A stretch of 27,837 bases of DNA from IMG/VR virus record IMGVR_UViG_3300028571_001709, positions 1 through 27,837 of that record; one strand, 5' to 3'. Origin of the DNA: a virus. The notes below the pieces were generated by a model. It worked only from the letters and a program-made list of their open reading frames with translations. It was not told the origin of the DNA and did not search any database. Position 1 is the stretch's first letter. Every line of letters starts with the position of its first letter. This document shows positions 877 to 27,837 of this stretch, piece by piece. The position numbers were made by a program, and so were the translations under genes.

Positions 877-2091
877 ATGTCAAAAATTAATGTTTTAGTT
901 ATTCCATCAGACCGTTCAGGAGTCGGTAAGTTCCGCTCAATGGACCCTCACATTTTCCTACAATCTAAATACCCTGACGAGTTTCACGTTGAGATAGATT
1001 TTCAACCTCCTGTAGATAATATGGAGTTTTGGAAAAAATATCAAATTGTTCATTATCACCGTGCTATCAGTCAAAACTACGACTATTCAGCACAGTTAGT
1101 TGAAAAACTAAATGCTATGGGTATTATCACCATATGTGATATTGATGACTATTGGTTACCAACAAAAGACCACCCAATCCACGATATTATTGTTTTCAAT
1201 AAGATTAATGAAAAGATTGTTGCCAATCTGAAAGTTGCGAAATACGTTACCACAACAACACCACATTTTGCCGATGAGATTAGAAAACTCAACAAGAATG
1301 TCTACGTTCTACCCAACGCAATCAATCCTGACGAACCACAGTTTAAGGAACAAACTCCTGAACACGATAAGTTACGAATCGGTTGGTTAGGTGGTTCTTC
1401 TCACTTGGCGGATTTACAACTACTTGACGGAAGTTTTGCCAAGATTGTAGATAAGAAAGATAAATACCAATTTGTATTGTGTGGTTTTGACACTCGTGGA
1501 ACTATCACAGAAATCATCGCTCAAACAGGAGAACACAAAAAACGTGATATCAAACCTGAAGAAACCGTGTGGGCAAGATACGAAGAGATTTTCACTCAAA
1601 AATACAAAACAATATCTCCCGAGTACCAAAAAAAATTAATGTTGTTCCAACAACAAGAGTATCCTGAATTTATTGACGAGTCATACCGAAGAGTTTGGAC
1701 TCTACCTGTTACAAGTTATGCTAAGAACTACGCAAAGTTTGATGTATCTTTGGCACCAATTAAAAACCACATCTTTAATAGAATGAAGTCACAACTAAAG
1801 ATAATTGAAGCAGGTTTTTACAAAAAAGCGATTATTGCATCAAATGTAGGACCTTACACAATTGATTTGAAACATTGTTTAGAAAATGGTAAATTTGTTG
1901 ACGGGAACGCTATGCTGGTTAACGAGGCACGAAATCACGCCGATTGGGCCAAATACATCAACAATCTAATTGCCAATCCAAATATGGTTAAAGATATGGG
2001 TGAGAGATTATACGAAACCGTTAAGGACACATACGATTTGAATACCGTAACAAAAACAAGAGCTGATTTATACAAAAGTTTAGTAAAATGA
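877..2091 (+). CDS. GT-B fold glycosyltransferase (GT4-like)
   Basis: A 404-aa protein with the two-domain layout of GT-B glycosyltransferases. The N-terminal domain includes SGVGKFRSMDP, IVHYHRA and DIDDYWLP. The C-terminal nucleotide-sugar domain starts near residue 167 (LRIGWLGGSSH) and includes a KIIEAGFYKKAIIASNVGPY segment, where GT4 enzymes place the donor-binding Glu and a conserved small-residue stretch. Such enzymes transfer a sugar from an activated nucleotide donor; donor and acceptor cannot be read here. The gene follows a 55-base AT-rich gap and its last bases overlap the next gene (ATGA), so it may open the operon. It is one of four glycosyltransferase genes in the plus-strand block. 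Confidence 0.85.
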   Translation: MSKINVLVIPSDRSGVGKFRSMDPHIFLQSKYPDEFHVEIDFQPPVDNMEFWKKYQIVHYHRAISQNYDYSAQLVEKLNAMGIITICDIDDYWLPTKDHPIHDIIVFNKINEKIVANLKVAKYVTTTTPHFADEIRKLNKNVYVLPNAINPDEPQFKEQTPEHDKLRIGWLGGSSHLADLQLLDGSFAKIVDKKDKYQFVLCGFDTRGTITEIIAQTGEHKKRDIKPEETVWARYEEIFTQKYKTISPEYQKKLMLFQQQEYPEFIDESYRRVWTLPVTSYAKNYAKFDVSLAPIKNHIFNRMKSQLKIIEAGFYKKAIIASNVGPYTIDLKHCLENGKFVDGNAMLVNEARNHADWAKYINNLIANPNMVKDMGERLYETVKDTYDLNTVTKTRADLYKSLVK

Positions 2092-2798
2092 TAAAAATAC
2101 CATTACCCAAAATTCTTTTCTTAGACATTGAAACTGTCGGTTTATGTAAAGATTACGACACATGTGTCATTGACCATCCAAAGATTGCCGAACAATTTGA
2201 CAAATACTTTGATTGGTTTTTAAAACGTTTTCCTGAGGACTCATTAATTGAAGAAAACCAAAAAAACAAAGTGTTTGCAACCCGTTGTGCTTTGGTACCT
2301 GAATTTGCAAAAATTGTTTGTATCAGTGTTGCCTTCGTTATGGAAAACGGTGATGTTAAAAAACAAACTTTTTCAAACGACAACGAAACTCAACTGTTAC
2401 AAGATTGTCAAAAACTTCTTGACCGTTGTGGTAAATTGGAGTTTTGGCTCTGTGGACATAACCTGAAGAACTTTGACATCCCTATGATGGCAAAAAGAAT
2501 GATTATAAACGGACTTCTCCCACCGTCAATCCTTCCTTCCTATGATACCAAACCTTGGGACATCAAAGCAATTGATACCCGTGAAATTTGGCAATTCGGT
2601 GCATACACCGCAATTGGTTCTTTGGACTTGATGTGTGCTTCTATGGAAGTACCTTCACCCAAAGATGGTGAAGTGACTGGAGATAAAGTTCACGACGCAT
2701 ATTGGAACAAGGGTATGTTGAAAGAAATTTCAGAATACTGTGAAAGAGACGTAAACGTTTTGATTGATATTATTAAAAAATTAAAAGCACTTAAATAA
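2088..2798 (+). CDS. DEDDy 3'-5' exonuclease (DNA_pol_B_exo2-like)
   Basis: A 236-aa protein with all three exonuclease motifs of the DnaQ/PolB superfamily: FLDIET (Asp13, Glu15), GHNLKNFDIPMM (Asp130) and YCERDV (Tyr217, Asp221). The Tyr-x3-Asp spacing of the third motif puts it in the DEDDy class. The pattern most resembles the stand-alone 'predicted PolB-associated exonuclease' family rather than a polymerase domain. It would hydrolyse DNA or RNA 3' ends using two metal ions, for proofreading, repair or nucleotide recycling. The start ATG overlaps the preceding stop (ATGA), and the stop overlaps the dUTPase start (TAATG), so translation is probably coupled. The dUTPase neighbour fits a nucleic-acid metabolism role. 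Confidence 0.85.
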   Translation: MIKIPLPKILFLDIETVGLCKDYDTCVIDHPKIAEQFDKYFDWFLKRFPEDSLIEENQKNKVFATRCALVPEFAKIVCISVAFVMENGDVKKQTFSNDNETQLLQDCQKLLDRCGKLEFWLCGHNLKNFDIPMMAKRMIINGLLPPSILPSYDTKPWDIKAIDTREIWQFGAYTAIGSLDLMCASMEVPSPKDGEVTGDKVHDAYWNKGMLKEISEYCERDVNVLIDIIKKLKALK

Positions 2799-3409
2799 TG
2801 GAAAATATAAATTTAAATGACCCCGAACTTGATAATGAGTTCATCAAACTTTTAGAAGAAATTAAAAATTTCAAACCCGACGGTGAAACAGATGTGTTGG
2901 ATGAATTGAAAACAAATATAGGTTTTGACCTCAATGACTTTGAAGATTTTTTAGCTAACGGTCTTAGCCGAAAGATTTTGGCATACAAGAAACTACATCC
3001 CGATGCAGTTGACCCTGAATATGCATACGAGTCAGATTCAGGATTTGATTTATGGTCGGTAGAAGAAGTTAATTTCCTTCCATTTGAAAGGAAACTTGTT
3101 TCAACAGGATTGTCATTTGACATCCCCGAAGGACATGAAATTCAAGTAAGAACCAAGAGTGGTTTAGCTCTTAAACAAGGTCTTATGGTTTTGAATAGTC
3201 CTGGTACTGTTGACCAAGGTTATACCGGTGAAGTCAAAGTTATTTTGATGAACATGAACAACATGGCAATGACTGTGGATAAGGGACAAAAAATTGCACA
3301 AGCAGTTCTATGTTCTGTAGAGTCAGGAAAGAAAATTTACCTACACCATGTTGAAGAGTTCAACGAAAAAGAACGTGGTGATAATGGTTTTGGTTCAACA
3401 GGAATTTAA
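2798..3409 (+). CDS. dut: dUTPase (deoxyuridine 5'-triphosphate nucleotidohydrolase)
   Basis: A 203-aa protein with the five trimeric-dUTPase motifs in order: DSGFDLWS (80-87), RTKSGLALK (118-126), a GTVDQGYTGEVKV segment (136-148) holding the catalytic Asp, GQKIAQAV (163-170) and the P-loop-like RGDNGFGSTG (193-202). It converts dUTP to dUMP and pyrophosphate, keeping uracil out of phage DNA and supplying dTMP synthesis. It is longer than the usual ~145 residues because of an acidic N-terminal extension of about 65 residues, whose role is unknown. Motif 5 has Asp-Asn where Gly-Gly or similar is common; the rest is intact, so it should be active. The next gene starts 1 base after the stop. 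Confidence 0.95.
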   Translation: MENINLNDPELDNEFIKLLEEIKNFKPDGETDVLDELKTNIGFDLNDFEDFLANGLSRKILAYKKLHPDAVDPEYAYESDSGFDLWSVEEVNFLPFERKLVSTGLSFDIPEGHEIQVRTKSGLALKQGLMVLNSPGTVDQGYTGEVKVILMNMNNMAMTVDKGQKIAQAVLCSVESGKKIYLHHVEEFNEKERGDNGFGSTGI

Positions 3410-3410
3410 T

Positions 3411-3797
3411 ATGGAAAATGTAAGCCCTGTTTTACCTGAAGGTACCAAAAATTACCTCATTGACATTGATGGAACAATCACCGAAGATGTTCCAAATGAG
3501 GAACCATGGAGAATGTTAGAATGTGAACCATATGAAGGTTCTGTGGACATCATCAACCGATGGTTCAGTGATGGACACGTTATCACATTCTTCACATCAA
3601 GAACCGAAGAACATCGTGAAATAACCGACACATGGTTACAGAAAAATGGTTTTAGATTTCACAATTTATTAATGGGAAAACCTCGTGGTGGTAACTACCA
3701 TTGGATAGATAACCATATTGTTCGCGCAACAAGATATAATGGAAAGTGGACACCACTTACAACAGTTAAAACAGATATTGAAGTTTTTGAGAAATGA
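3411..3797 (+). CDS. small HAD-superfamily phosphatase
   Basis: A 128-aa protein from ATG 3411; the frame runs further upstream inside dut, but the ATG one base after the dut stop is the sensible start. It has HAD motif I (DIDGTI, nucleophile Asp18 and acid Asp20) and motif II (FFTSRTEE, about 60-67), then a GKPRGGNYHWIDN segment that may provide the Lys and late Asp. There is no cap domain, as in small HADs acting on phosphorylated sugars, nucleotides or protein/DNA ends. The substrate is unknown. Its last bases overlap the large glycan enzyme (ATGA), so a sugar-phosphate substrate is a reasonable guess. Confidence 0.8.
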   Translation: MENVSPVLPEGTKNYLIDIDGTITEDVPNEEPWRMLECEPYEGSVDIINRWFSDGHVITFFTSRTEEHREITDTWLQKNGFRFHNLLMGKPRGGNYHWIDNHIVRATRYNGKWTPLTTVKTDIEVFEK

Positions 3798-6286
3798 TTA
3801 CAGTCGCATTTAGTACAAGAAAAATAGACCCTTCCTTTGTAGAATTACTTAAGAAAACCTCAGGGATTAAATCTCTTGAGGTTTTACCTTTTGAAAACAA
3901 CGGAGAATATTCCTTAACTCAGGTGTATAACATGGCACTTGAGAAATCATCAAATGACATTGTTGTTCTTTGTCACGATGACCTTTATTTTGATTCAAAC
4001 AATTGGGGTCAAAAAGTGTTAAATCATTTCAAAAGAAATCCCGATTACGGTATCTTGGGTGTCGCAGGAACCACCAAACTACCCAAGTCAGGAATGTGGT
4101 GGGAAGACCGTTCAAAGATGAAGGGTATTGTTAACCATGAAAGTGGTGGAAAGAAATGGGAATCAAAGTATTCACCAACTAAAGGAAATGAGGTTGATGA
4201 AGTAGTTTTAGTTGACGGATTATTTATCGCAGTTGACAAAACAAAAATTCAAGAAAAGTTTGACGAATCTGTAGTTGGATTCCACTTCTATGATGTGGAT
4301 TTCTGTTATAGAAATTTCCAAAAAGAAGTTTCAATTGGTGTTGTTTATGATGTCAGAATTACACACAAATCTATTGGACAAACAAACGAACAATGGGAGT
4401 TAAATCGTAAAGTTTTTTCTGAGAAATATTCAGAGCATTTACCAATTAAAGTAGTTCCAAATTTGGATATGACTTCCAAATTAAAAGTGATGATTACTTG
4501 TTTATCATTTAAGAATTTTACGGGTTCAGAAATGTATGTTTTTGAATTAGCAAAAGGTTTACGAAAATTAAACTGTGAAGTTACTGTTGTTTCAACTATT
4601 GGTGGCCCATTGACAACCATGGCAAACAAAATTGGAATTAAAACTTTGGGATTCACCGAATTCCCTGGTTTTAAATTAGGTGATGGGAAATGGGGTTTTG
4701 ACACCGCTCAAGGTGTTCAACCAAGTAAAGCCGGTGTGATGTATAAGGTGTCTGACCCTGATTACGATATTATCCACGTACAACACAAAAACATCACAGA
4801 TAAAGTGGTTGAAGTTTATCCAAAAATACCAAAAATTGCAACCATTCACTCTGAAGTAATCGCTTTAGAAAATCCAGTAAAAGATAAGACCATTGTAAAT
4901 TACATTGCAATACGACCTGAAATTCAAAACCATATCATCAATGTTCATGGAATTCCTGAAGAAAATACCCAAGTAATTTATAACCCAATTGATGATACCC
5001 GTTTTAACACAAAAGGAATTAAAGATGATGGTTATATTTTATTTGTTGGAACCATAGATTATTTGAGAGACAAAACAATTACAGAATTGTCAGAATATGC
5101 CGAAGAAATTGGTAAGGAATTGTGGATTGTGGGAGAGATGAATGGTGGTAATATTGGTCACGTTTTAGAAAAACCATTTGTTAAGTATTTTCCATCAACA
5201 AATCAGGTAGAAAAGTTTGTTAAAAATTGTTCTGAAACTGCCGGTATTTTACTTGGTAGAACAACTATTGAAGGATGGATGTGTGGTAAACCCGGTTGGA
5301 TTTTTGATGTTGACCCTTTTGGTAATGTTTTATCAAAAGAAAAACACGAGGTTCCTGAAGATGTTTCAAAATATTCTTCAACAGAAATTGTAAAACAAAT
5401 CAAACAATATTACATTGATACCCTTAACCTTTGGTGGGATGAAAGAGAAGACAAAATTGAATCTGAAAGTTTCAATAAACTTTATTTCAACGGTAGAAAA
5501 ATTACCCCCGATAACACGAAAAACTGGGGTGATATGGTTCCATACAAAATCTTAAAAGAACTCTCAAAGAGTGAAAAACTAAAAGTTTCTCAAGTTTTTA
5601 ACGTAAAGAATCCTATGGTAAAATATCCAATTATATCAACAGGAAGTGTGATGCACTTTACCAATCCTGATTCAATTGTTTGGGGTACAGGATGTATTGA
5701 TGAAAAGATGGTTGGTGAGGAACCAAAGAAAATATATGCCGTTAGAGGACCTCTAACACAACAAGAATTGGAACTCAAAGGATGGGAATGTCCCGAAGTA
5801 TACGGTGACCCCGCTTTGTTGTATCCAATGATTTATAACCCCCAAGTTCAGAAGAAACATAAGTGGGGTTTTATCCCTCACTACATTGAGTTTGAATCTG
5901 ATTCAGATTTGGATGTGATTCACCATATGGAGAAACTTGGATTCCAAATTATTGATGTTTGTTCAGGTTCAGAGAAGTTTATTGATGAGTTGTTAGAATG
6001 TGAAAACATCATTTCATCATCACTACACGGATTAATTGCCGCAGACGCATACGGTATACCAAATGCAAGAGTTAACGTGTCTAATAAACTAATTGGTGGT
6101 GACTTTAAATTCAAAGACTATTGTTACTCAGTTGAAAGAGAATTGGATTACGGTTATCAATTAACAAACGAAACAACTGTGGAAAACATTATGGATTTAC
6201 ATTACAATAAATCCATTATCTTTGATAGAGAAAAATTACTAGAATCAGCACCTTGGAATTACGAAGAAAATAAAGAACTATTTTGA
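3794..6286 (+). CDS. three-domain glycan enzyme: GT2-like + GT4-like + polysaccharide pyruvyltransferase
   Basis: An 830-aa protein that looks like a fusion of three enzymes. Residues 1-225 form a GT-A/GT2-like domain (YNMALEKSSNDIVVLCHDD, with HDD at 61-63 in the DxD position, and GFHFYDVDFCYR at 162-173). Residues 229-545 form a GT-B domain of GT4 type (MITCLSFKNFTGSEMYV, YILFVGTIDYLRDK, EGWMCGKPG). Residues about 565-800 resemble polysaccharide pyruvyltransferases: NWGDMVPYKIL (577-587), WGTG (630-633), VRGPLT (650-655), GDPALLYP (671-678) and SSLHGLIAADAYGIP (742-756). It could add two sugars and a pyruvyl ketal to a phage or host glycan. The domains are read from motifs; activity is inferred. 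Start and stop are tightly packed with neighbouring genes. Confidence 0.85.
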   Translation: MITVAFSTRKIDPSFVELLKKTSGIKSLEVLPFENNGEYSLTQVYNMALEKSSNDIVVLCHDDLYFDSNNWGQKVLNHFKRNPDYGILGVAGTTKLPKSGMWWEDRSKMKGIVNHESGGKKWESKYSPTKGNEVDEVVLVDGLFIAVDKTKIQEKFDESVVGFHFYDVDFCYRNFQKEVSIGVVYDVRITHKSIGQTNEQWELNRKVFSEKYSEHLPIKVVPNLDMTSKLKVMITCLSFKNFTGSEMYVFELAKGLRKLNCEVTVVSTIGGPLTTMANKIGIKTLGFTEFPGFKLGDGKWGFDTAQGVQPSKAGVMYKVSDPDYDIIHVQHKNITDKVVEVYPKIPKIATIHSEVIALENPVKDKTIVNYIAIRPEIQNHIINVHGIPEENTQVIYNPIDDTRFNTKGIKDDGYILFVGTIDYLRDKTITELSEYAEEIGKELWIVGEMNGGNIGHVLEKPFVKYFPSTNQVEKFVKNCSETAGILLGRTTIEGWMCGKPGWIFDVDPFGNVLSKEKHEVPEDVSKYSSTEIVKQIKQYYIDTLNLWWDEREDKIESESFNKLYFNGRKITPDNTKNWGDMVPYKILKELSKSEKLKVSQVFNVKNPMVKYPIISTGSVMHFTNPDSIVWGTGCIDEKMVGEEPKKIYAVRGPLTQQELELKGWECPEVYGDPALLYPMIYNPQVQKKHKWGFIPHYIEFESDSDLDVIHHMEKLGFQIIDVCSGSEKFIDELLECENIISSSLHGLIAADAYGIPNARVNVSNKLIGGDFKFKDYCYSVERELDYGYQLTNETTVENIMDLHYNKSIIFDREKLLESAPWNYEENKELF

Positions 6287-6287
6287 T

Positions 6288-6737
6288 ATGATATATTGGT
6301 TTACAGGACAACCCGGAAGCGGTAAAACAGTTTTGAGTGTTTTACTTAAAGATTATTTAGAAAAAAATTATTTAAAAAATGTGATTCACATTGATGGTGA
6401 TGATTTGAGAGAAATTTTTGAAAACAAAGATTACTCTAAAGAAGGTAGAATTAAAAACATTGTTTTTGCTCAACAATTAGCCCAATTTTGTCACACCAAA
6501 GGGTTTGACGTTGTTGTGAGTTTGGTGAGCCCTTACAAAGATGTTAGAGAATCCTTTAAAGAGAAAATGAAAAATCACATTCGTGAAATTTATGTTCACA
6601 CCACCGATATACGTGGAAGAGAAGATTTTCATGTTAAGGATTACGAAGCACCTACGGATGAATTTATTGAAGTAGACACCACATATGAAACTCCTGTGGA
6701 ATCAATACGATACATTACATCGGGGGTGGGTATATGA
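6288..6737 (+). CDS. cysC: short adenylylsulfate (APS) kinase-like P-loop kinase
   Basis: A 149-aa kinase with a Walker A loop (GQPGSGKT, 7-14), the APS-kinase signature IDGDDLRE (35-42) and the SPYKDVRESF segment that matches the CysC SPYR..R block. CysC phosphorylates APS to PAPS, the universal sulfate donor. It is shorter than typical CysC (~200 aa): the lid region that normally reads R..KGLY.KAR is reduced to a brief RGREDFHVKDYEAP stretch, so substrate specificity may differ. It starts one base after the triple-domain glycan enzyme and overlaps the next HAD gene (ATGA). No sulfotransferase is visible in the window. The family call is firm; the exact substrate is not. Confidence 0.8.
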   Translation: MIYWFTGQPGSGKTVLSVLLKDYLEKNYLKNVIHIDGDDLREIFENKDYSKEGRIKNIVFAQQLAQFCHTKGFDVVVSLVSPYKDVRESFKEKMKNHIREIYVHTTDIRGREDFHVKDYEAPTDEFIEVDTTYETPVESIRYITSGVGI

Positions 6738-7084
6738 AATATAACACCTATTTTTGTGACATAGACGGTACGGTTTTTAAATACAGGTTGTTTGACGAAT
6801 TACAGACAACACCGGTTGAAATTATTGAATCAACCAAAGACTTGTTGGTTAAATGGTATAACGAAGGACATCACATTGTTATGACCACCGCAAGACCTGA
6901 AGAATTAAGACATTTCACTGTCATGGAACTATTCAATAATAGTATTCCTCACCATCAGTTAGTTATGGGTATAGGAAGAGGAATTAGATTTGTTATAAAC
7001 GACATGGACCCACAAAAAGAAGGAAAAAGGGCTCATGCGATTAACCTTTATAGAGATAAAGGTTTTGATAGTAATGTGGACTAA
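6734..7084 (+). CDS. small HAD-superfamily hydrolase
   Basis: A 116-aa protein with HAD motif I (CDIDGTVF, Asp9 and Asp11) and motif II (MTTARPEELR, about 50-59). Later motifs are weak: FVINDMDPQKEGKRA may contain the late acidic residues. It overlaps the CysC-like gene by 4 bases and the nucleotidyltransferase by 11 bases, so the three are probably translated as a unit. It is similar in plan to the HAD at 3411-3797 but not obviously a recent duplicate. A role in removing phosphate from sugar or nucleotide intermediates made by its neighbours is inferred from position only. Confidence 0.75.
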   Translation: MKYNTYFCDIDGTVFKYRLFDELQTTPVEIIESTKDLLVKWYNEGHHIVMTTARPEELRHFTVMELFNNSIPHHQLVMGIGRGIRFVINDMDPQKEGKRAHAINLYRDKGFDSNVD

Positions 7085-7472
7085 AAATATACATGTTCAG
7101 TCTTCTTTGGAAAGAAAAGACGGACAATTCGCAATGTTTGTAGGTAGATGGCAACCTCTTCACAAAGGTCATCAAGAATTATTTAAACAAGCGATGGACG
7201 AGGGTAAGAATGTTCTAATCTGTATTAGAGACATAAAACCTGATGAAAAAAATCCATTTTCTGCGGAGGAAGTTAAAAATAATATAATGAATTTTTATTC
7301 AACTGAATGTGTTGAAGGTAAGGTCACAGTAATGGTTATTCCCGATATCTGCTCTATTGAATTTGGTAGAGGAGTTGGTTATGACATTATTGAACACATA
7401 CCACCAACAGAAATTGGTGAAATATCTGCAACCAAAATTAGGGAGGAAATGAGACAAAATGGTAAGTTATAA
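7074..7472 (+). CDS. cytidylyltransferase-like nucleotidyltransferase (NMNAT-type)
   Basis: A 132-aa protein; I place the start at ATG 7074, which overlaps the HAD stop by 11 bases, because the N-terminal motif follows at a normal distance. It has the HxGH nucleotide-binding signature GRWQPLHKGH (24-33) and the C-terminal ISATKIRE (117-124), the two hallmarks of the nicotinamide-nucleotide / glycerol-phosphate nucleotidyltransferase superfamily. It would transfer AMP or CMP to a phosphorylated acceptor. NMN adenylyltransferase (NAD salvage) is the likeliest family label, but a role in making an activated glycan precursor is possible given the neighbours. It overlaps the DUF2061 gene by 14 bases. 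Confidence 0.75.
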   Translation: MWTKNIHVQSSLERKDGQFAMFVGRWQPLHKGHQELFKQAMDEGKNVLICIRDIKPDEKNPFSAEEVKNNIMNFYSTECVEGKVTVMVIPDICSIEFGRGVGYDIIEHIPPTEIGEISATKIREEMRQNGKL

Positions 7473-7674
7473 ACGACACTTATTAAAAACAATTACATGG
7501 AGAGTTGTTGGTACAATTGACACCATGTTGTTGGGCTGGTTTGTTACCGGTGACATTAAATTGGGTTTAGCAATTGGAGGTTTTGAGGTTATAACCAAAA
7601 TGATATTATACTTCCTACATGAAAGAGTTTGGTACAAATATATTAGATACGGTCTAAATAACGATGAGAAATAA
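7459..7674 (+). CDS. DUF2061 small membrane protein
   Basis: A 71-aa protein with the DUF2061 pattern: KRHLLKTITWRVVGTIDTM near the N-terminus, then a first hydrophobic segment, a GLAIGGFEVITKMILYFLHE second segment and WYKYIRYG at the end. Two transmembrane helices are expected, so it should sit in the inner membrane. In bacteria DUF2061 genes often lie beside or fused to sulfate-activation genes such as cysC; here cysC is three genes upstream. The function of the family is not established. The start overlaps the nucleotidyltransferase gene by 14 bases. Confidence 0.85.
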   Translation: MVSYKRHLLKTITWRVVGTIDTMLLGWFVTGDIKLGLAIGGFEVITKMILYFLHERVWYKYIRYGLNNDEK

Positions 7675-7722
7675 CCCTTTTGTTTTTTTATTTTAATTTT
7701 ATCTTCTTAAAAAGAAAACACC

Positions 7723-7851
7723 ATGGAGAAGATTAATTCTGAGGAATCAAAAAAAATCTACATTTATGAAAGTCCCGATAAAGGTAAAACAATTTATCAA
7801 AGAGAATTTTCAAAACCTCACGATACCCGTGAATTAATAATTACAGAATAA
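7723..7851 (+). CDS. 42-aa conserved-looking small protein upstream of phoH
   Basis: A short open frame from ATG 7723 to TAA 7851 fills most of the 179-base gap before phoH. The product contains KKIYIYESPDKGKTIYQRE, a motif I recall from tiny proteins near phoH-type genes in marine T4-like phages. The stop is 2 bases before the phoH start, which fits translational coupling. The upstream 48 bases (7675-7722) are T-rich and without a clear promoter. Function unknown. Confidence 0.6.
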   Translation: MEKINSEESKKIYIYESPDKGKTIYQREFSKPHDTRELIITE

Positions 7852-7853
7852 TA

Positions 7854-8594
7854 ATGAGAAAAAAACAAACACCAACTGCAACTCCATCAACAACGGCAAT
7901 AGAATACGGTCACAAAACTAAAAAAGAGGTTATTTGTTCAATCTTAAAAAGAAAAACAAAAGAGAAATTTTTATCACAAAGTCAAAAATTATATTACGAT
8001 AAATTAAATAATGGTGAAATTATAATTTGTTCAGGTCCTGCAGGTGTTGGTAAGAGTTACATCGCAATGAAAGCAGCTGTAGATTTATTATCTGACCCAA
8101 CAAACAACTACGAAAAAATTATCATTGTAAGACCCGCAGTCGAAGCTGAAGAAAAGTTAGGGTCACTTCCAGGTAACGTTGAAGAAAAACTTGACCCATA
8201 TATTTTCCCATCATACTATCTTTTGAATAAAATTATTGGTAAAGAAGTTCGTGAAAAATTAAAAGAAATTGAAGTTATTGAAGTTTTTGCTTTGGCGTAC
8301 ATGAGGGGTATGAACATTGATAATTCAATCTTAATCTTTGAAGAAGCTCAGAACTCAACACCAAACCAAATGAAATTGTTACTTACAAGAATTGGTTTTA
8401 ACAGTAAATTTTTTATTTCAGGTGATTTGGAACAGACCGATAGATATAAAGATAAAAAACAGTCAGGTTTGTGGGATGCAATCCACAGGTTCCAAGATAT
8501 GGATAGTATCTTAACACACGAATTCAGTGATACTGATGTTGTGAGAAATCCATTGATTACAAAAATATTAAAAAAATACGTAGACAAAGAATGA
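7854..8594 (+). CDS. phoH: PhoH-family ATPase
   Basis: A 246-aa P-loop NTPase. Walker A is GPAGVGKS (61-68), the RPAVEAEEKLGSLPG motif (93-107) is typical of PhoH, and Walker B is IFEEAQN (161-167), followed by the SGDLEQTDR sensor region. PhoH proteins are predicted RNA-acting ATPases and are common in phages, where their role is unsettled. Length is usual for phage PhoH. The last 4 bases overlap the next gene (ATGA). Confidence 0.93.
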   Translation: MRKKQTPTATPSTTAIEYGHKTKKEVICSILKRKTKEKFLSQSQKLYYDKLNNGEIIICSGPAGVGKSYIAMKAAVDLLSDPTNNYEKIIIVRPAVEAEEKLGSLPGNVEEKLDPYIFPSYYLLNKIIGKEVREKLKEIEVIEVFALAYMRGMNIDNSILIFEEAQNSTPNQMKLLLTRIGFNSKFFISGDLEQTDRYKDKKQSGLWDAIHRFQDMDSILTHEFSDTDVVRNPLITKILKKYVDKE

Positions 8595-9175
8595 GAATTG
8601 CGGTAGACATTAACGGTGTTTTAAGAGATACTCTCACCAAGATTCAACAGGTGTACGAGAGGTGGTATATTGATAACCAAATCAAGCAAGAAGATGAAAG
8701 TTTTGAATATGAAATAATCTCTCCATTAACTTCATTAGAAATTAGAGAACATCTAAAATTTAAAGATGATGACGAATTGTATGATTTTCTTTATGTTGAC
8801 CATACAATGGAAATTTTTGCACATTCACCATCAGCAGAAATGAGTACCTTTGTGGATTTTAATGAATTCTATTTAGAAAATAGAGACAATCACGATATTC
8901 TTTTAGTTTCTGACGAAATTGGAAAATCAAAACCAGCAACATTATTCTTCATTTCAAAGTTTGGATGTCAAGTAGAAAAAATCAAATTTTATAGTAAAGT
9001 AACTTTATCATCTCTTTGGGATGAACTTGATGTATTAATAACTGCGAACCCTGAATTGATTTTAAATCATCCTGAAGATAAAAAAGTGATAAAGTTTAAC
9101 ACAATTTACAATAGTAATATTGATTGTGAAACTTATATTAGTAATATTAAAGAATTAAAAGAACTTAAGTTTTAA
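8591..9175 (+). CDS. HAD/5'-nucleotidase-like protein with altered motif I
   Basis: A 194-aa protein. The N-terminus reads AVDINGVLRDT, the place of HAD motif I (DxDG), but the second Asp is Asn (Asp6, Asn8). That residue acts as general acid in normal HAD phosphatases, so hydrolysis may be impaired or the protein may have a binding role. Later parts fit the fold: LLVSDEIGKSKPATLFFISK (motif II/III-like, with Lys) and DELDVLITANPELI (motif IV-like Asp). It overlaps phoH by 4 bases. It is the third HAD-type gene within 6 kb. Confidence 0.65.
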   Translation: MRIAVDINGVLRDTLTKIQQVYERWYIDNQIKQEDESFEYEIISPLTSLEIREHLKFKDDDELYDFLYVDHTMEIFAHSPSAEMSTFVDFNEFYLENRDNHDILLVSDEIGKSKPATLFFISKFGCQVEKIKFYSKVTLSSLWDELDVLITANPELILNHPEDKKVIKFNTIYNSNIDCETYISNIKELKELKF

Positions 9176-9462: not shown

Positions 9463-10518
9463 ATGAACTCAGAACAAATAGACAAAATCAAAGAATCTAT
9501 TAAAAACCTAAGAGATAAAAACTCAAGGATTTACTTTTTTGTACACGATACAAAAGGAAACGCAAAAGCGTCAATTAAATTTATTTATGATTGTGCAATC
9601 ACTCTAAAAAAAGAAGGATACAATACATTTATTCTACACGAGAAAAAAGATTATGCGGGTGTCGCATCTTGGTTAGGTGAAGAATACATGAATGAAGTTC
9701 CACACCAAGTAATTGAAGGTGAGAACATTCAAGTATCACCTGAAGATTTCTTAGTGGTTCCTGAAGTATTTGGATTCATGATGGAACAAGTTAAAAACTT
9801 ACCTTGTGGTAAAATTGTTTTAGCACAATCTTACTCAGCAATGTTAGAAACTTTACAACCGGGTCAAACATGGAATCAGTTTGGATTTTTAAAATGTATT
9901 ACAACTTCAAACAAACAAAAAGAATACATTGAGGGTATTATGAGAAATCAGTCATTTGATATCATTGAACCTTACATTTCAGATACATTCAGAAAATCTG
10001 ATAAACCACCAATGCCAATTATTGGTATTCACACAAGAGAACATCTTGATACTATTAATTTAATTAAAACCTTTTATTTGAGATTTCCTCAGTTCAGATG
10101 GTTTACATTCCGTGACTTGAGAGGATTGAGTCATGACGAATTTGCTCAAGCAATTTCTGAATGTTTCTTAACCGTGTGGGTTGACAGACAAAGTGGATAT
10201 GGTACTTTCCCACTTGAATCTATGAAGTCAGGAGTTCCCGTTATTGGAATTGTTCCTGATTTGGTACCAAGTTGGATGAATGAAAATAATGGTATTTGGA
10301 TTAAAGACCAAATTTTACTTCCTGAGTTGATTGCTGACTGGTCTCAGAATTGGTTAGAAGATAATATTTCTCAGGAAATTATTGCTAAAATGGATGAAAC
10401 AGTTGAAAAACTACCAACAAAAGAATCTTTTGAAAAACAAATAGTGGATACCTTCTCAGCATACATAAATAACAGAGCTTCTTCAATGGAAGAACAAATT
10501 TCAAAATTTATAGAATAA
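9463..10518 (+). CDS. GT-B glycosyltransferase-like protein
   Basis: A 351-aa protein with a GT-B style C-terminal half: PIIGIHTREH (about 183-192), WFTFRDLRGLSHDEFAQAIS, and GYGTFPLESMKSGVPVIG (about 246-263), which matches the E-x-M-x-x-G-x-P-V-I/V donor-binding region of GT4-type enzymes. The N-terminal half (RIYFFVHDTKGNAKASIKFIYDCAI-type start) fits the acceptor domain. Donor and acceptor are unknown. It is paired with the GT2 gene that follows after a single base, so they probably act on the same glycan. Confidence 0.75.
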   Translation: MNSEQIDKIKESIKNLRDKNSRIYFFVHDTKGNAKASIKFIYDCAITLKKEGYNTFILHEKKDYAGVASWLGEEYMNEVPHQVIEGENIQVSPEDFLVVPEVFGFMMEQVKNLPCGKIVLAQSYSAMLETLQPGQTWNQFGFLKCITTSNKQKEYIEGIMRNQSFDIIEPYISDTFRKSDKPPMPIIGIHTREHLDTINLIKTFYLRFPQFRWFTFRDLRGLSHDEFAQAISECFLTVWVDRQSGYGTFPLESMKSGVPVIGIVPDLVPSWMNENNGIWIKDQILLPELIADWSQNWLEDNISQEIIAKMDETVEKLPTKESFEKQIVDTFSAYINNRASSMEEQISKFIE

Positions 10519-10519
10519 C

Positions 10520-11326
10520 ATGAAAGAAACATTAGACGTAACCGTAATTTTACCAATCAAATCATCTTTACCAAGAGATTTTGATGAATATTTTGATAGA
10601 GCAATTCAGTCTCTAAAAAATCAAAAAACAGGGTATAAAGAATTAATCATTGTCTCATCACAAGAAGAAAAACTTCAAAATTATTTGAAACAATATGACT
10701 TCCAAGATGTTCCTCACAGAATTTTAACTTGGGAGGGTGAGGCAAGTTATGCAAATCAAATCAATTATGGTATTGAAAATGCAAACTCTGAATGGGTAAC
10801 ACTGTTTGAGTTTGATGATGAATACGCGGCAATTTGGTTTGATAATGTTAAAAAATACTCTTCATATTACCCTAACGTTCAAGCATTCATGCCTGTTGTA
10901 GTTGATGTAGATGAGAAAGGTGTTTTTGCAGGATTTACCAACGAAGCGGTATTCGCAGCAAACTTTGCAATGGAGTTGGGATATTTGACAAACGATATTC
11001 TTCAAGACTATCAGAATTTCCAATCAGCTGGTATGGTATTTAAAAAATCCGTATATGATGACTTTGGTGGGTTTAAATCAAGTATCAAATTAACCTTTGT
11101 TTATGAGTTTTTACTTAGATTAACTTATAACTCTGTCGTGATGATGACTATCCCAAAATTTGGATATAAACACACAAATATGAGAGAAGGTTCAATTTTT
11201 TGGAACTACAAAAATGGTGGTGACAGAATGATTGACGATGAAGTTAAGTTTTGGGTACAAACCGCAAAAAAAGAATATTTCTTCAAAGAGGATAGAACCA
11301 TAAAATACGAATCATCAAGTAATTGA
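10520..11326 (+). CDS. GT-A family 2-like glycosyltransferase
   Basis: A 268-aa protein with the GT2 layout: VTVILPIKSSLP at the N-terminus (nucleotide-binding strand), KELIIVSSQEEK, ANQINYGIENANSEWVTLF, and the metal-binding FEFDDEY at about 92-98 in the DxD position. The rest (FQSAGMVFKKSVYDDFGGF) fits the acceptor side. It would add a sugar from a nucleotide donor. The gene starts one base after the GT-B gene stop, and its own stop TGA overlaps the ATG of the sigma-factor gene (TGATG), coupling glycan genes and late-transcription control in one operon. Confidence 0.8.
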   Translation: MKETLDVTVILPIKSSLPRDFDEYFDRAIQSLKNQKTGYKELIIVSSQEEKLQNYLKQYDFQDVPHRILTWEGEASYANQINYGIENANSEWVTLFEFDDEYAAIWFDNVKKYSSYYPNVQAFMPVVVDVDEKGVFAGFTNEAVFAANFAMELGYLTNDILQDYQNFQSAGMVFKKSVYDDFGGFKSSIKLTFVYEFLLRLTYNSVVMMTIPKFGYKHTNMREGSIFWNYKNGGDRMIDDEVKFWVQTAKKEYFFKEDRTIKYESSSN

Positions 11327-18394: not shown

Positions 18395-18417
18395 CTTGTC
18401 TTTTATGTTTAGCCATA

Positions 18418-18429
18418 TATTTATTTATA
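18418..18429 (+). promoter_or_regulatory. overlapping TATTTAT motifs at the HNH gene start
   Basis: TATTTATT (18418-18425) and TATTTATA (18422-18429) overlap, and the last A is the A of the ATG of the HNH gene. If this is a late promoter the mRNA would begin inside the gene, so it may be a chance or derived copy. Confidence 0.3.
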
Positions 18430-18917
18430 TGGATACAAAACTATGTGTTATATGTAACACCGAAAAAAACATAGATGATTTTTATAAATCTCAAAGAGGA
18501 CGAAAATGTATTGACTGTGTTTTGAAAAAAGCTAAAACGTATAAAAAAATAAGAAGGTCAAACCCTGAAGTTAGAAAATTAGAGGGGTTAAAACAGAAAG
18601 AAAGAAGGGTACGACTTTGGCAAAATACTTTAATCCACGACTCCAAACGGAAAGGTGTTGAAAACACATTAAAAGTGGAAGACATTAATGAAATGTATGA
18701 AAATCAAAATGGTCTATGTTTTTGGTTCAAAATACCTCTTATTCCTTCAAACAGTTCAAAACACCCTCAACAACCTTCATTAGATAGATTAGATAGACTA
18801 AAGGGGTATACAAAAGATAATGTAGTATTAACGTGTTACTCGGCAAATATAGGAAGAAATGAAAACGATTTGGAAACTTGGAAAAAATTTTTATCTATCT
18901 TTTTGGAGAATAAATAA
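18429..18917 (+). CDS. HNH endonuclease with N-terminal zinc ribbon (homing-type)
   Basis: A 162-aa protein from ATG 18429; an upstream TTG at 18396 in frame would add residues lying in the terminator/leader and is unlikely. The N-terminus has paired CxxC motifs (CVIC at 6-9, CIDC at about 26-29) around FYKSQRGRK, a zinc ribbon of the type that precedes phage HNH domains. The C-terminal half reads GLCFWFKIPLIP, PSLDRLDRLKGYTKDNV and CYSANIGRNEND, the HNH beta-beta-alpha signature of homing-like nucleases (SLDRID..KGY..GNV). The usual final His is Cys here. It sits alone after a terminator, as free-standing homing genes do. Probably a DNA nickase or nuclease promoting its own inheritance. Confidence 0.75.
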   Translation: MDTKLCVICNTEKNIDDFYKSQRGRKCIDCVLKKAKTYKKIRRSNPEVRKLEGLKQKERRVRLWQNTLIHDSKRKGVENTLKVEDINEMYENQNGLCFWFKIPLIPSNSSKHPQQPSLDRLDRLKGYTKDNVVLTCYSANIGRNENDLETWKKFLSIFLENK

Positions 18918-20357: not shown

Positions 20358-22154
20358 TTATCTCAATTCTCTCAAGTCGAATGTTCTAACACCATCAACT
20401 GTAACTCTACCATAAAAACGGTTGTTAACCATTTTCTTAGCGTATCTTGTCATGATACCCTTGATAGGTGTGAAGTTGAATGGGTTATACATTGTTGGAG
20501 TTAATTGTAGAGGTACATACGGTGCGTAGATGTAACCTGTGTCTAACAATGATGTTCCTTTGTGTCCCAATAACACTTGGTTAGCTGGGAAGTAAGGGTC
20601 ACGGTAAACTTGGTATCTACCTGCCAATGTTCCAACTCTTTCAATACCCATGTTGTATTGGTCTTGCTCAGGAGCTGCGTTTGATACGTGGAAGTACTCC
20701 AAGTCATCAAAGATTGCAGATACCTCAGAAGATACAACAATCCAGTTAGCTCCACCTCTTAAGGTAGATTTGTGGATTTGAGCTGAGATTTGGTTGATTG
20801 CAGTGATAAGAGTTTGGTTCCAATCCTTTTGAGTGTAAGGAACTGCGTTTCCGCCTAATCTCTTCCATCCGTTGTAATCCCAACGTAAGTTCCAAGCCGC
20901 GCCTTTTCTAAGGTCTCTTAAGATTTCACGGTCGATTTCAGCCGCAACTTGTTCAGACAATAAAGCTGTCAATTCAGCTTCAGCGTCAATGTTGTGGAAC
21001 GCCGCAACGTCTTGAGCCATTTCAGGTGACCATTGTGCTCTTAACTTTCTTTCAGTCACAGAAACTGTAACAGACTGAAGGTCAAAAGAAACTTCACCAA
21101 TCTTATCTTCAAATTCAAGGTTTTTGTAAACTTTGTAAGTAGTAACAAACGCGTTGCTATCTGCACTTGAAGAAGAGAATGGAGTTCCACAGTAACCATC
21201 AATAGAGTTAGTTGAAACTGTACATGGAGTAGTTAAATCAACTTCCAAGTAAATTCTACCTGTTGCGTCACATACGTCATAGTAAGTACCACCGTCGGTC
21301 TTAGAACTTGGGAACGCTAAGGTTTGGTTTTGACCGTATTGAACAATACCCTTACCGTATCTCTGAGTTACAACTCTGAACAAGTAGTTATTAGCTGTGT
21401 TAGCTGAAGTATAAACGTTTCCTTGAGCACCTCTAATAGTCATACCAGCCAAGAAAGTCTCAGTGTCCATAGGTTGACCATCAGGACCGATAAGTTTACC
21501 CGCTCCGTCTGGTGCGAAACCTGACATAACCAACAATACTTTTGTAGTTGCTGAGTTATAAGCGTAAGCCGCGGGAAGCATAACATCACCAATCCACTTA
21601 ACAGTAGCGTTAGGTGCAGTTATAGCAGTCCACTCACCTCTAGAGTAATCGTAAAGACCTGGTGGGTCAAGAGCTGGTTCGTTACCTTCATAGAACTTGT
21701 CATACAAGTCTTTCTGAGTGTTAGGGTTGTAACCACTGTTTGGTGTTTGACCTGAAGGAGCGTTAGGTGCTCCATAAGGTGCGTAGTGTTGAGCGTTTGT
21801 TGCAGATTCAACTTCGTATTCCTGAATGAAAGGTACGAAGTAGAACAACTTACCGATAGGAAGGTTCATTGCTTGTACAGAAACGATGTCGTTAGCCAAA
21901 AGTTTAGAGAATACTCTTCTTACGATTGGGAAAACTACAGTTTCGAAAGAACCTGAGTCAGCAGTTGTTGATGCTTCATTGATGAGGTGTGACGCTTGGT
22001 TTTCATATAATTGAGCGACGTTCTCTTTTAGGTGACCTTTTAAGCCTTCTAGGAACCCTAATTTGTCCCATTTGTTAATTGTGTCTTCTTTGATAACTTT
22101 CAAGTGCTTAAGACCGATGTTACCTACAAGACCTGATTCTAATAATGCTCCCAT
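20358..22154 (-). CDS. 23: major capsid protein (T4 gp23-like)
   Basis: A 598-aa protein whose N-terminal part matches T4 gp23: a leader of 60 residues, then ASTTADSGSFETVVFPIVRR, FSKLLANDIVSVQAMNLP and LFYFVPF. The C-terminal half has QWSPEMAQDVAAFHNIDAEA, EIDREILRDLRKGAAWN and ANWIVVSSEVSAIFDDL, also typical of the HK97-fold gp23 family. The likely prohead-protease site is Glu60-Ala61 in HLINE/ASTT (Ile-x-Glu before Ala). It is somewhat longer than T4 gp23 (521 aa), with an insertion-like Gly/Asn/Pro-rich stretch around residues 125-170. It is the last gene of the minus-strand head operon; no own promoter motif is seen in the 31-base gap to the scaffold gene. Confidence 0.93.
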   Translation of the reverse strand: MGALLESGLVGNIGLKHLKVIKEDTINKWDKLGFLEGLKGHLKENVAQLYENQASHLINEASTTADSGSFETVVFPIVRRVFSKLLANDIVSVQAMNLPIGKLFYFVPFIQEYEVESATNAQHYAPYGAPNAPSGQTPNSGYNPNTQKDLYDKFYEGNEPALDPPGLYDYSRGEWTAITAPNATVKWIGDVMLPAAYAYNSATTKVLLVMSGFAPDGAGKLIGPDGQPMDTETFLAGMTIRGAQGNVYTSANTANNYLFRVVTQRYGKGIVQYGQNQTLAFPSSKTDGGTYYDVCDATGRIYLEVDLTTPCTVSTNSIDGYCGTPFSSSSADSNAFVTTYKVYKNLEFEDKIGEVSFDLQSVTVSVTERKLRAQWSPEMAQDVAAFHNIDAEAELTALLSEQVAAEIDREILRDLRKGAAWNLRWDYNGWKRLGGNAVPYTQKDWNQTLITAINQISAQIHKSTLRGGANWIVVSSEVSAIFDDLEYFHVSNAAPEQDQYNMGIERVGTLAGRYQVYRDPYFPANQVLLGHKGTSLLDTGYIYAPYVPLQLTPTMYNPFNFTPIKGIMTRYAKKMVNNRFYGRVTVDGVRTFDLRELR

Positions 22155-23963: not shown

Positions 23964-24680
23964 TTATCTACCCAAAAAATCGGATAATTTTTTCATTAAG
24001 TCAACTGATTTTTCCATTCCGTTGTCTTTAATGTGTTGTTTTTTTTCCTCATCCAAGTTTTCTTCGTAATTAACCCTATCCTCAGGGTTGTTGAAGAGGT
24101 ATGCACCAGGTGTTGACGGTGACGATACTAAATCAAAACAGATAAGTTCAAAATCATCTTGTACTTCATTTTGTTCCCCAACTTTCTTTATTGAACCAAC
24201 TCCACGAGAAGATACACCCATAGTAACACCTTGTCTCATTAAGTTAGCTGCAATGTCACCTTTAGTAGAAACAATACCTTTTTCGTGAAATCCTGGTGAA
24301 GTCAACAATTTTAATTTACCCATTAGAGCATTACCATCCCACCAAATATCGGTAATTAGATGTGAAACTCTATCTAAGTCAATAAGAGATGACTCAGGGT
24401 GATTTAATTCAGAAGTTGACAAACCTTTTTTAATTGCGGTCTTGTATTTTTCAGATTCTCTCTTTAAAATCTTTTCAGGATATATTCTACCGTTTCTATT
24501 AGGTACACCGTACTTCTGTAATACAGCATAAAACTCAAAAGGATTCCTATAGTCTAATTCTTTTTGTTCACGAAGAATGTCAACATTTTTTGGGTCTGAT
24601 GGTGATACCCATCCCGCATCCATTTCAACTAAAATACCCTTACCCGTTTCACTGGCGTTTAATATTCTATAATCTTTCAT
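23964..24680 (-). CDS. 21: prohead core protease (T4 gp21-like)
   Basis: A 238-aa serine protease of the phage prohead class. Key parts are VPNRNGRIYPEKIL (59-72), ELNHPESSLIDLDRVSHLI (91-109, catalytic His94) and GVSSRGVGS (155-163, nucleophile Ser157 or Ser158), then FDLVSSPSTPGA. These match gp21 and related prohead proteases. It would trim the capsid protein and core proteins after Leu/Ile-x-Glu during head maturation and degrade the scaffold. It lies between the probable core genes and gp22, as in T4. A TATTTATC motif lies 14 bases upstream of the ATG. Confidence 0.93.
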   Translation of the reverse strand: MKDYRILNASETGKGILVEMDAGWVSPSDPKNVDILREQKELDYRNPFEFYAVLQKYGVPNRNGRIYPEKILKRESEKYKTAIKKGLSTSELNHPESSLIDLDRVSHLITDIWWDGNALMGKLKLLTSPGFHEKGIVSTKGDIAANLMRQGVTMGVSSRGVGSIKKVGEQNEVQDDFELICFDLVSSPSTPGAYLFNNPEDRVNYEENLDEEKKQHIKDNGMEKSVDLMKKLSDFLGR

Positions 24681-26146: not shown

Positions 26147-27837
26147 TTACGAACCAAGTAACTTATCCAATTCCTCAGCAATTTTTCCTAAGTTTTGTTG
26201 ACCAATACTTAAATCAAGAAATTTTGAACCATGAATATCATTTTCTAAGAGAATATTTAAGTCTTTTACATTGGTAGATTCAGGTGTTACCGCAGCTTCT
26301 TCACCAGGTGGAGTTTCTGGTGTTTCAGGTGCTCCTCCTCCTCCGAACTCAGCATCAAATCCACCACCTAATCCACCGGGGAAATCTGTTGCTGCTGGTT
26401 CACTAACCTCACCTGGAGGTGCTGCCGGAGCTCCCGCACCTTCTTTAGTACCATATAACTTATCCAATGTATCAAAGATACCTGTCTTAACAATAACTGT
26501 AGGAGTATTTTTAAGTTCCTCACCAATGGCTCTTTCCATTCTTTGTTGTAGTAAGTCAGTTCTAATTTCATCATCAGACCAACCAAATATGTGCTTTTTA
26601 GCCCATGTTGAAGATGCTGGTTGAATACCGTTTCCTGGGTCTGTAACAACATCTTTATACAACAACATTTTTTCCTTCCACAAATCAACTTTTAACAAAT
26701 CAGCTTGTGTTGAAGGGTTTGTTAAACCTAAAGTAAAGTTTGAAACTTCTTCTTCAAATCCCAATAAGAAAAGGTGAATAATAGCAATTTTATTCATCTC
26801 TTGCAACATTGATTTTTGAATCCTGTTGATAGTTCTAGCAAAACGAATATCCTGTAGTGCTAATGATTTTCCATCACCAACAGTTTCTTCAAATCCCAAG
26901 AATGTTTTTGGAATACGAAGTGCTGTTACAAGTTTTTTCTGAATATATTCAATATCGGCAATTTCAGAAAGGTTTGTAGCACCTGGCAAAGTTTCAATCG
27001 GAGAAGGTTGTGCCGGGTCTCTTACAGGGATAAAATAATCTTGGTCAACCGCCATTTGGTTGAATCTCATATCAACATTACCTGTCTTTGAATCTACAAT
27101 TTGTTCTCTTTTGAATTTGTTGGCAACTCTTTGTACGTATGCTTCAATATCATCATCTTCCATGTTACCAACATACACTTTGAAAATTCTTCTTTCAGGC
27201 GCTCTTGATGTTCTGTAAATTAACATCGCATCTTCTGATAACAAAAGTTGTTTCCAAGTACGTCTTGATTTTTCCAACATGGATGTACCATAAGGAAGTT
27301 TTCTATCATCCCCCAATAATCTGAAATGACCTACTTCCCATGGTTGAAAATCTATATTTCTTGATTTCCAAGTAAATTTAAGACCTTTACTATTGTCAGG
27401 TGTTTTTATGTTAGAGGTACCCATCCTTTCCGACATACCCAACTCATATCTTTCAATTTCAATGTTTGGAAGTTGGATACTACCAATAACCCCTTTTTCA
27501 GGGTCAAGTCTGAGATAAATAAAGTTGTCACCATACTTGCATGTGTTTCTTGTCCACATGGGTAAGTTAGTGTTAATATCTAAAGAATTATTAAATAAAT
27601 CGGCTAATACGGATTTTATTCTTTTAGATTCTGAATAAATTTGTAGAATAAAACCATCTTCGTTTGGTGTTGTAGATTCTTCGGCGTAAATGTCCAATGC
27701 CGCGGCAATTTCAGGAGTATTATGTGAAAAAATAGTGTCGGTGGCAAAATTTTTATAACCAGGAACTGTCAAGTCATACACAGGAATAACACCATAAGGT
27801 TCAATAGATTCAATTTTGTGATTTAAATTGATTACAT
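26147..27837 (-). CDS. 20: portal vertex protein (T4 gp20-like), C-terminal part, with intein end upstream
   Basis: The frame is open to the window edge, so the 5' part is missing. After the intein end, the C-extein of 523 residues begins TPEIAAALDIYAEESTTPNE and continues LADLFNNSLDINTNLPMWTR, CKYGDNFIYLRLDPE, LPNIEIERYE and YGTSMLEKSRRTWKQLLLSE, all close to T4 gp20. It forms the dodecameric ring for DNA entry and tail joining. The C-terminal 110 residues hold a Pro/Gly/Ala/Glu-rich low-complexity linker, unusually GC-rich for this genome, then a final helix. A GTG at 27781 could look like a start, but coding sequence runs further upstream, so it is not. Confidence 0.92.
   Translation of the reverse strand, partial: VINLNHKIESIEPYGVIPVYDLTVPGYKNFATDTIFSHNTPEIAAALDIYAEESTTPNEDGFILQIYSESKRIKSVLADLFNNSLDINTNLPMWTRNTCKYGDNFIYLRLDPEKGVIGSIQLPNIEIERYELGMSERMGTSNIKTPDNSKGLKFTWKSRNIDFQPWEVGHFRLLGDDRKLPYGTSMLEKSRRTWKQLLLSEDAMLIYRTSRAPERRIFKVYVGNMEDDDIEAYVQRVANKFKREQIVDSKTGNVDMRFNQMAVDQDYFIPVRDPAQPSPIETLPGATNLSEIADIEYIQKKLVTALRIPKTFLGFEETVGDGKSLALQDIRFARTINRIQKSMLQEMNKIAIIHLFLLGFEEEVSNFTLGLTNPSTQADLLKVDLWKEKMLLYKDVVTDPGNGIQPASSTWAKKHIFGWSDDEIRTDLLQQRMERAIGEELKNTPTVIVKTGIFDTLDKLYGTKEGAGAPAAPPGEVSEPAATDFPGGLGGGFDAEFGGGGAPETPETPPGEEAAVTPESTNVKDLNILLENDIHGSKFLDLSIGQQNLGKIAEELDKLLGS
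27719..27837 (-). other. C-terminal end of an intein inside the portal gene
   Basis: Before the portal sequence the frame encodes HKIESIEPYGVIPVYDLTV, then PGYKNFATDTIFSHN, directly followed by Thr. This is the Hint/intein C-terminal signature: block F (VYDLTVPG..NF) and block G (His-Asn at the splice junction), with Thr as the +1 nucleophile of the C-extein. The usual His in block F (HNF) is Lys here. The junction Asn is at 27719-27721 and Thr at 27716-27718. The N-terminal splicing block and any homing endonuclease are outside the window. Confidence 0.88.

Follow-up and report, generated by a model that had tools for sequence, protein, structure and literature searches.

The portal gene of a T4-like phage was found to be interrupted by an intein at the very end of the viral contig studied here. 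Based on the sequence comparisons below, we consider the element to be a class 1 cis-splicing homing intein, with an HNH endonuclease inside its Hint splicing domain, occupying a fixed portal site (SMEY^TPEI, the caret marking the insertion point), and we assign this reading a probability of about 0.94. The contig, hereafter the window, makes up an entire IMG/VR virus record (27837 bases); it ends at 27837 and holds just the last 39 residues of the intein. Neither the N-extein nor the first ~280 residues of the intein of this phage are covered by the contig, and a complete element in the window phage is proposed because near-identical relatives carry one.

A minus-strand open frame of 562 residues enters at the contig end (27835) and runs to a stop at 26147. 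Its first 39 residues, VINLNHKIESIEPYGVIPVYDLTVPGYKNFATDTIFSHN, are specified by 39 whole codons (27835-27719), end in FSHN and are followed by the portal residues TPEIAAALDIYAEE. The frame is open to the contig end and the intein part has no ATG. The TIGR01443 profile for the intein C-terminal splicing region scored 33.1 bits on the 40-residue tail (E 4e-8; cut-off 15.6 bits); with the whole ORF as input, the score was 28 bits. The Pfam Intein_splicing domain (PF14890) matched residues 5-39 at profile positions 120-155 of 155 (E 2e-4), with a score of 21.7 bits that is below the Pfam cut-off because just one quarter of the domain is present. Block G, in which His-Asn is followed by Cys, Ser or Thr, reads FSHN^T in the window, and block F contains the catalytic Asp (VYDLTV), the same Asp being invariant in all alleles. 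At the level of sequence, these results confirmed that the stretch is an intein C-terminus followed directly by Thr+1 of a T4-like portal (Table 1). A chance resemblance was excluded: at least 26 other viral contigs carry a complete copy at this position, and near-identical intein-free alleles exist as well.

Table 1. Coordinates of the intein tail, its portal host gene and neighboring head genes in the window.
Feature	Position	Strand	Evidence
Intein C-terminal splicing region, block F (VYDLTVPGYKNF) and block G (FSHN), cut by contig end	27719..27837	-	TIGR01443, PF14890, identity to L053 tail
Thr+1 of C-extein (ACT), predicted transesterification nucleophile	27716..27718	-	intein-free homologues read SMEY^TPEI here
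C-extein, T4-like portal (gp20 family), 523 aa + stop	26147..27718	-	PF07230 E 5e-72; phrog_213 portal E 1.5e-59
Prohead protease gp21-like, downstream, same head gene cluster	23964..24680	-	PF03420 E 5e-25
Major capsid protein gp23-like	20358..22154	-	PF07068 E 3e-72

The C-extein matched the T4 gp20 structure 3ja7 in a profile comparison (E 6e-28), the Portal_T4 domain (PF07230) begins at ORF residue 39, right at the splice junction, and the head genes follow the T4 order 20-21-23 (PF07230, PF03420, PF07068). Intein-free portals extend ~92-98 residues further upstream and read SMEY^TPEI across the site. The original prediction, which had placed an intein C-terminus at these coordinates, in a T4-like portal and at this insertion point, with a 523-residue C-extein lacking the normal gp20 N-terminus, was thus borne out; an N-extein of ~90-105 residues was seen in the relatives. 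Based on the Pfam register, Thr+1 aligns with N85 of T4 gp20 (N84 ^ N85 Y86 E87 V88), while MAFFT alone put the insertion site off by a few residues. By this alignment, the site is the equivalent of T4 gp20 N84/N85, at the start of the wing domain. An unspliced insert of 320 residues at this point would probably prevent assembly of the portal ring or of the prohead, and survival of the phage thus demands efficient splicing.

A free-standing endonuclease VII/HNH-like gene in the structural region (18396-18917, plus strand; phrog_1035, E 7e-21) is possibly a free homing endonuclease. A glycosyltransferase-like gene (877-2091, plus strand) was assigned from a weak Pfam match, and ORFs 3794-6286, 9463-10518 and 10520-11326 resemble it by eye; these ORFs are near genes for dUTPase (2798-3409) and PhoH (7854-8594).

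The window ORF, used as query, retrieved 51 loci, the majority matching only from residue 40 (i.e., intein-free) and a minority from residue 1. Further copies were sought with the complete 320-residue intein of L020, the nearest allele, together with the junction pattern. The complete element was identified in at least 26 other IMG/VR contigs, with several more copies cut by contig ends, and all were at SMEY^TPEI. The complete copies are ~320-387 residues long, contain blocks A, B, F and G as well as an HNH_3 domain, and form one open frame with the portal, reading SMEY-CI(A/H)G(D/E)TKIAT...SHN-TPEI without interruption. Block A reads CIHGDTKIATPDG and block B IIATWEHQLMKRDG. Residue 1 is Cys in all complete relatives except L075, L076 and L186, which have Ser, and block B has its TxxH in every one (TWEH, TYGH or THGH). 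The HNH_3 endonuclease of the element reads EEVHHIDFNGKNNQPENL...EHRAYH, and the segment that follows it was read, by sequence only, as a putative helical DNA-binding part. The HNH_3 domain was identified in L020, L065, L075 and L076. The L020 intein scored 53.9 bits for Intein_splicing and 24.2 bits for HNH_3, slightly under the Pfam cut-off of 24.8, and L065 scored 36 bits for HNH_3. The upstream parts that had been predicted, namely a Cys1, a block B with TxxH, an endonuclease and an N-extein in the same frame, were accordingly all present in the relatives, with no stop codon between them and the C-extein.

Residues conserved among the alleles included C/S1, the TxxH, D302, K309, H319 and N320 of the splicing domain and H147, H148, N160 and H169 of the HNH domain. 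The splicing domain is under purifying selection, the median pN/pS being 0.09 for the N-terminal and 0.14 for the C-terminal portion; the value for the HNH part was 0.18. An AlphaFold model of the complete intein, built with 16 relatives, was of low confidence (pLDDT 47, pTM 0.28). The missing N-terminal half of the window phage's gene was sought by the N-extein/intein junction pattern, which returned 8 contigs; no window-type allele was recognized among those inspected. A search of bacterial genomes for the intein found one full-length relative only, on a contig that is phage by gene content.

Splicing is proposed because the motifs are intact and the domain is under purifying selection. With Cys1 and Thr+1, the pathway would consist of an N-S shift, transesterification, Asn cyclization and ligation, yielding a seamless portal protein. 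The HNH domain is predicted to cut the empty portal alleles of co-infecting phages, after which recombination would copy the intein into the cut allele. The intein would then be a selfish element of no or low cost, for which a regulatory role would be superfluous.

The distribution of the element indicated that it moves. The DNA of the window is 98.6-99.3% identical to that of intein-free L002, L003 and L004 over 3.6-5.5 kb, and each of these alignments ends at 27720, which is the splice junction, two bases matching by chance. The C-extein differs from these three alleles at only 7-9 of 1569 positions. The intein was thus inserted in frame, the empty alleles reading SMEYTPEI where the window match stops. 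By contrast, the intein tail of the window is identical to those of L053 and L020 (119/119 nt), the L053 intein being complete, whereas the portal of L053 shows 53 differences in the 283 nt that follow the junction (~19%) and the flanking genes of L053 and L020 are only 75-84% identical to the window where aligned. The same pattern was repeated in other pairs. Between L053 and L073, synonymous differences (pS) amounted to 0.12-0.31 for the intein but to 0.76-0.85 for the two exteins; between L060 and L062, the corresponding values were 0.07-0.12 and 0.68-0.98. Because the tail is identical across portals that are ~19% divergent, near-identical alleles are empty, and the pattern recurs in the other two pairs, the comparisons show that the intein is transmitted independently of its host gene and that the lineage of the window acquired its copy very recently. 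Loss from L002-L004, rather than gain in the window, is less likely since such a loss would have to be seamless.

Because the tail alone is visible, other structures of the gene were weighed. The 39 residues are about the size of an IntC fragment, and split inteins are known in fractured phage genes (Dassa et al. 2009, as cited in PMC10448857), so that the window might hold only the C-half gene of a portal joined in trans. We consider this extremely unlikely, as the relatives, including L053 with its identical tail, have one continuous frame with N-extein and endonuclease, and the frame of the window is open to its very end with no start codon in the intein part. The upstream part of the window copy lies outside the contig and could in principle be broken, leaving a degraded remnant and an unspliced portal. 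We consider this very unlikely as well: the visible DNA is identical to that of a distant phage with an intact allele, pointing to recent transfer, the portal C-extein is intact, and, as the portal is an essential virion protein, breakage of the intein would be lethal to a phage that had no second copy.

The contig also ends in sequence common to several phages, and L021-L023 and L081 end likewise in this element; an assembler might have joined the intein tail to the wrong portal allele. The positions of the ends make such a chimera very improbable. In L021, L022 and L023, the contig end is 122 intein nt from the junction, and 5 C-extein nt are shared with the window allele, a total of 127; for the window, the figures are 119 intein nt and 8 extein nt shared with the ACTCCTGAG alleles, again a total of 127. 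These ends would fit an ordinary branch point at a 127-base assembly word, arising where one intein is present in several portal alleles per sample, and the extension across the junction would then be read-supported. Such a branch would also account for only an intein tail being visible in the window. Several assemblies break inside the intein (L021-L023, L078-L081 and the window end) at positions fitting a 127-base branch word, and metagenome assembly probably fragments portal genes systematically where they share an intein.

The original prediction had further proposed that Lys in place of the usual block F His alters splicing kinetics or makes splicing conditional, such that slow splicing would tie portal supply to infection conditions. 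The residue is indeed non-consensus, and an unspliced insert in an oligomeric protein would be expected to block assembly. However, this Lys (K309) is invariant in 16/16 aligned alleles, and Lys was found at the same place in the shortened L186 copy and in the unrelated portal intein of LR756511 (VYDLSVEKHKNF). Since it is invariant in every allele, the alignments identify it as a family trait and not a lesion. In addition, the block F Lys aligns with an Arg in PDB sequences of the M86 variants (VPGLRNF; wild-type DnaB has VPGPHNF). M86 is an evolved Ssp DnaB intein that splices with more junctions than the wild type (PMC6333167). By analogy, an intein can splice well with a basic residue other than His at this place, which does not in itself prove fast splicing here. 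Our literature search on the block F histidine found nothing. The fixed Lys of the alleles and the Arg of active M86, with the catalytic Asp present, take away the case for either a defect or a switch. Intein-free portals 99% identical to that of the window are common, and the distribution of the intein is explained by homing. We therefore regard a conditional intein as very unlikely; the proposed link to infection conditions was unsupported, and parasitism and homing suffice for the data.

The nearest solved structures were the Ssp DnaB mini-intein (1mi8) and its M86 variants (6frg, 6frh, 6fre). Ssp DnaB/M86 was the best solved match of the allele profile and, with the M86 variants, also of the tail, and the block F/G layout is the same by sequence. 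Ssp DnaB differs in its host protein and in having the wild-type His rather than Lys, and the portal intein has Thr+1 and carries an HNH endonuclease. Inteins in phage portal genes have been described from different phages, namely the six PORT examples of mycobacteriophage cluster C1 (Kelley et al. 2016, PMC5050341). The inteins of the T4-like phage Maynard and of phiCbK (PMC3868846, PMC3556154) are likewise in an essential packaging gene of large phages, although this is the large terminase and not the portal. No paper on inteins in T4-like gp20/portal proteins was found in a partial coverage of the literature, with most subscription journals outside it. This kind of intein is already known, and the more interesting wider observation is that the portal gene is an intein hotspot.

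Inteins were seen at no fewer than six sites in T4-like portals of large uncultured phages, with as many as four in one gene; they start with Cys1, Ser1 or Pro1 and carry HNH or LAGLIDADG endonucleases. L065 and L074 have a second portal intein (ORF 4716-8744) with a Pro start, RNT^PIRENTMIPLLDG...VFLSN^CKYGDN. Its block F contains a Cys, and Ser replaces the penultimate His; from these residues, its chemistry looks like that of class 3. In L076 (ORF 4701-8936), the portal gene holds a Ser1 allele of the window's intein and also a second one, IYRT^C...HN^TRAPE, whose endonuclease is of the LAGLIDADG type. In huge phages, the portal of LR756508 (L082, 1027-5187) has three inteins at other sites and that of LR756511 (L083, 2701-5277) has one, FADEA^[C1...HN]C, all unannotated. 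These are likewise inside T4-like portals, but at other insertion sites than the window's and only ~28% identical to its family. The most extreme case was L186 (NVTD01000053.1, 3239-8875), a 1879-residue T4-like portal precursor with four inteins in one open frame, in which four Intein_splicing stretches were identified. Its sites are the present one, which holds a mini-intein with no recognizable HNH, that of LR756511, that of L065, filled here as well, and one new site; a sibling of the L065 element is at another site in L186. The L186 contig was binned as a Candidatus Wolfebacteria MAG, yet it has terminase-like and portal genes and is a phage contig. That several splicing events per gate subunit make portal maturation rate-limiting, and possibly regulated, seems to us very unlikely.

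Together, these data describe an allele family of homing inteins in T4-like portals with matched, near-identical empty and filled natural alleles. Annotators should bear in mind that inteins are break points in the portal genes of these phages: contigs stop at them, and the N- and C-terminal halves can be miscalled. An intein with a Lys-type block F at a precise conserved site may interest protein-splicing engineers. For the phages themselves, the matched empty and filled alleles make homing between co-infecting phages directly testable.
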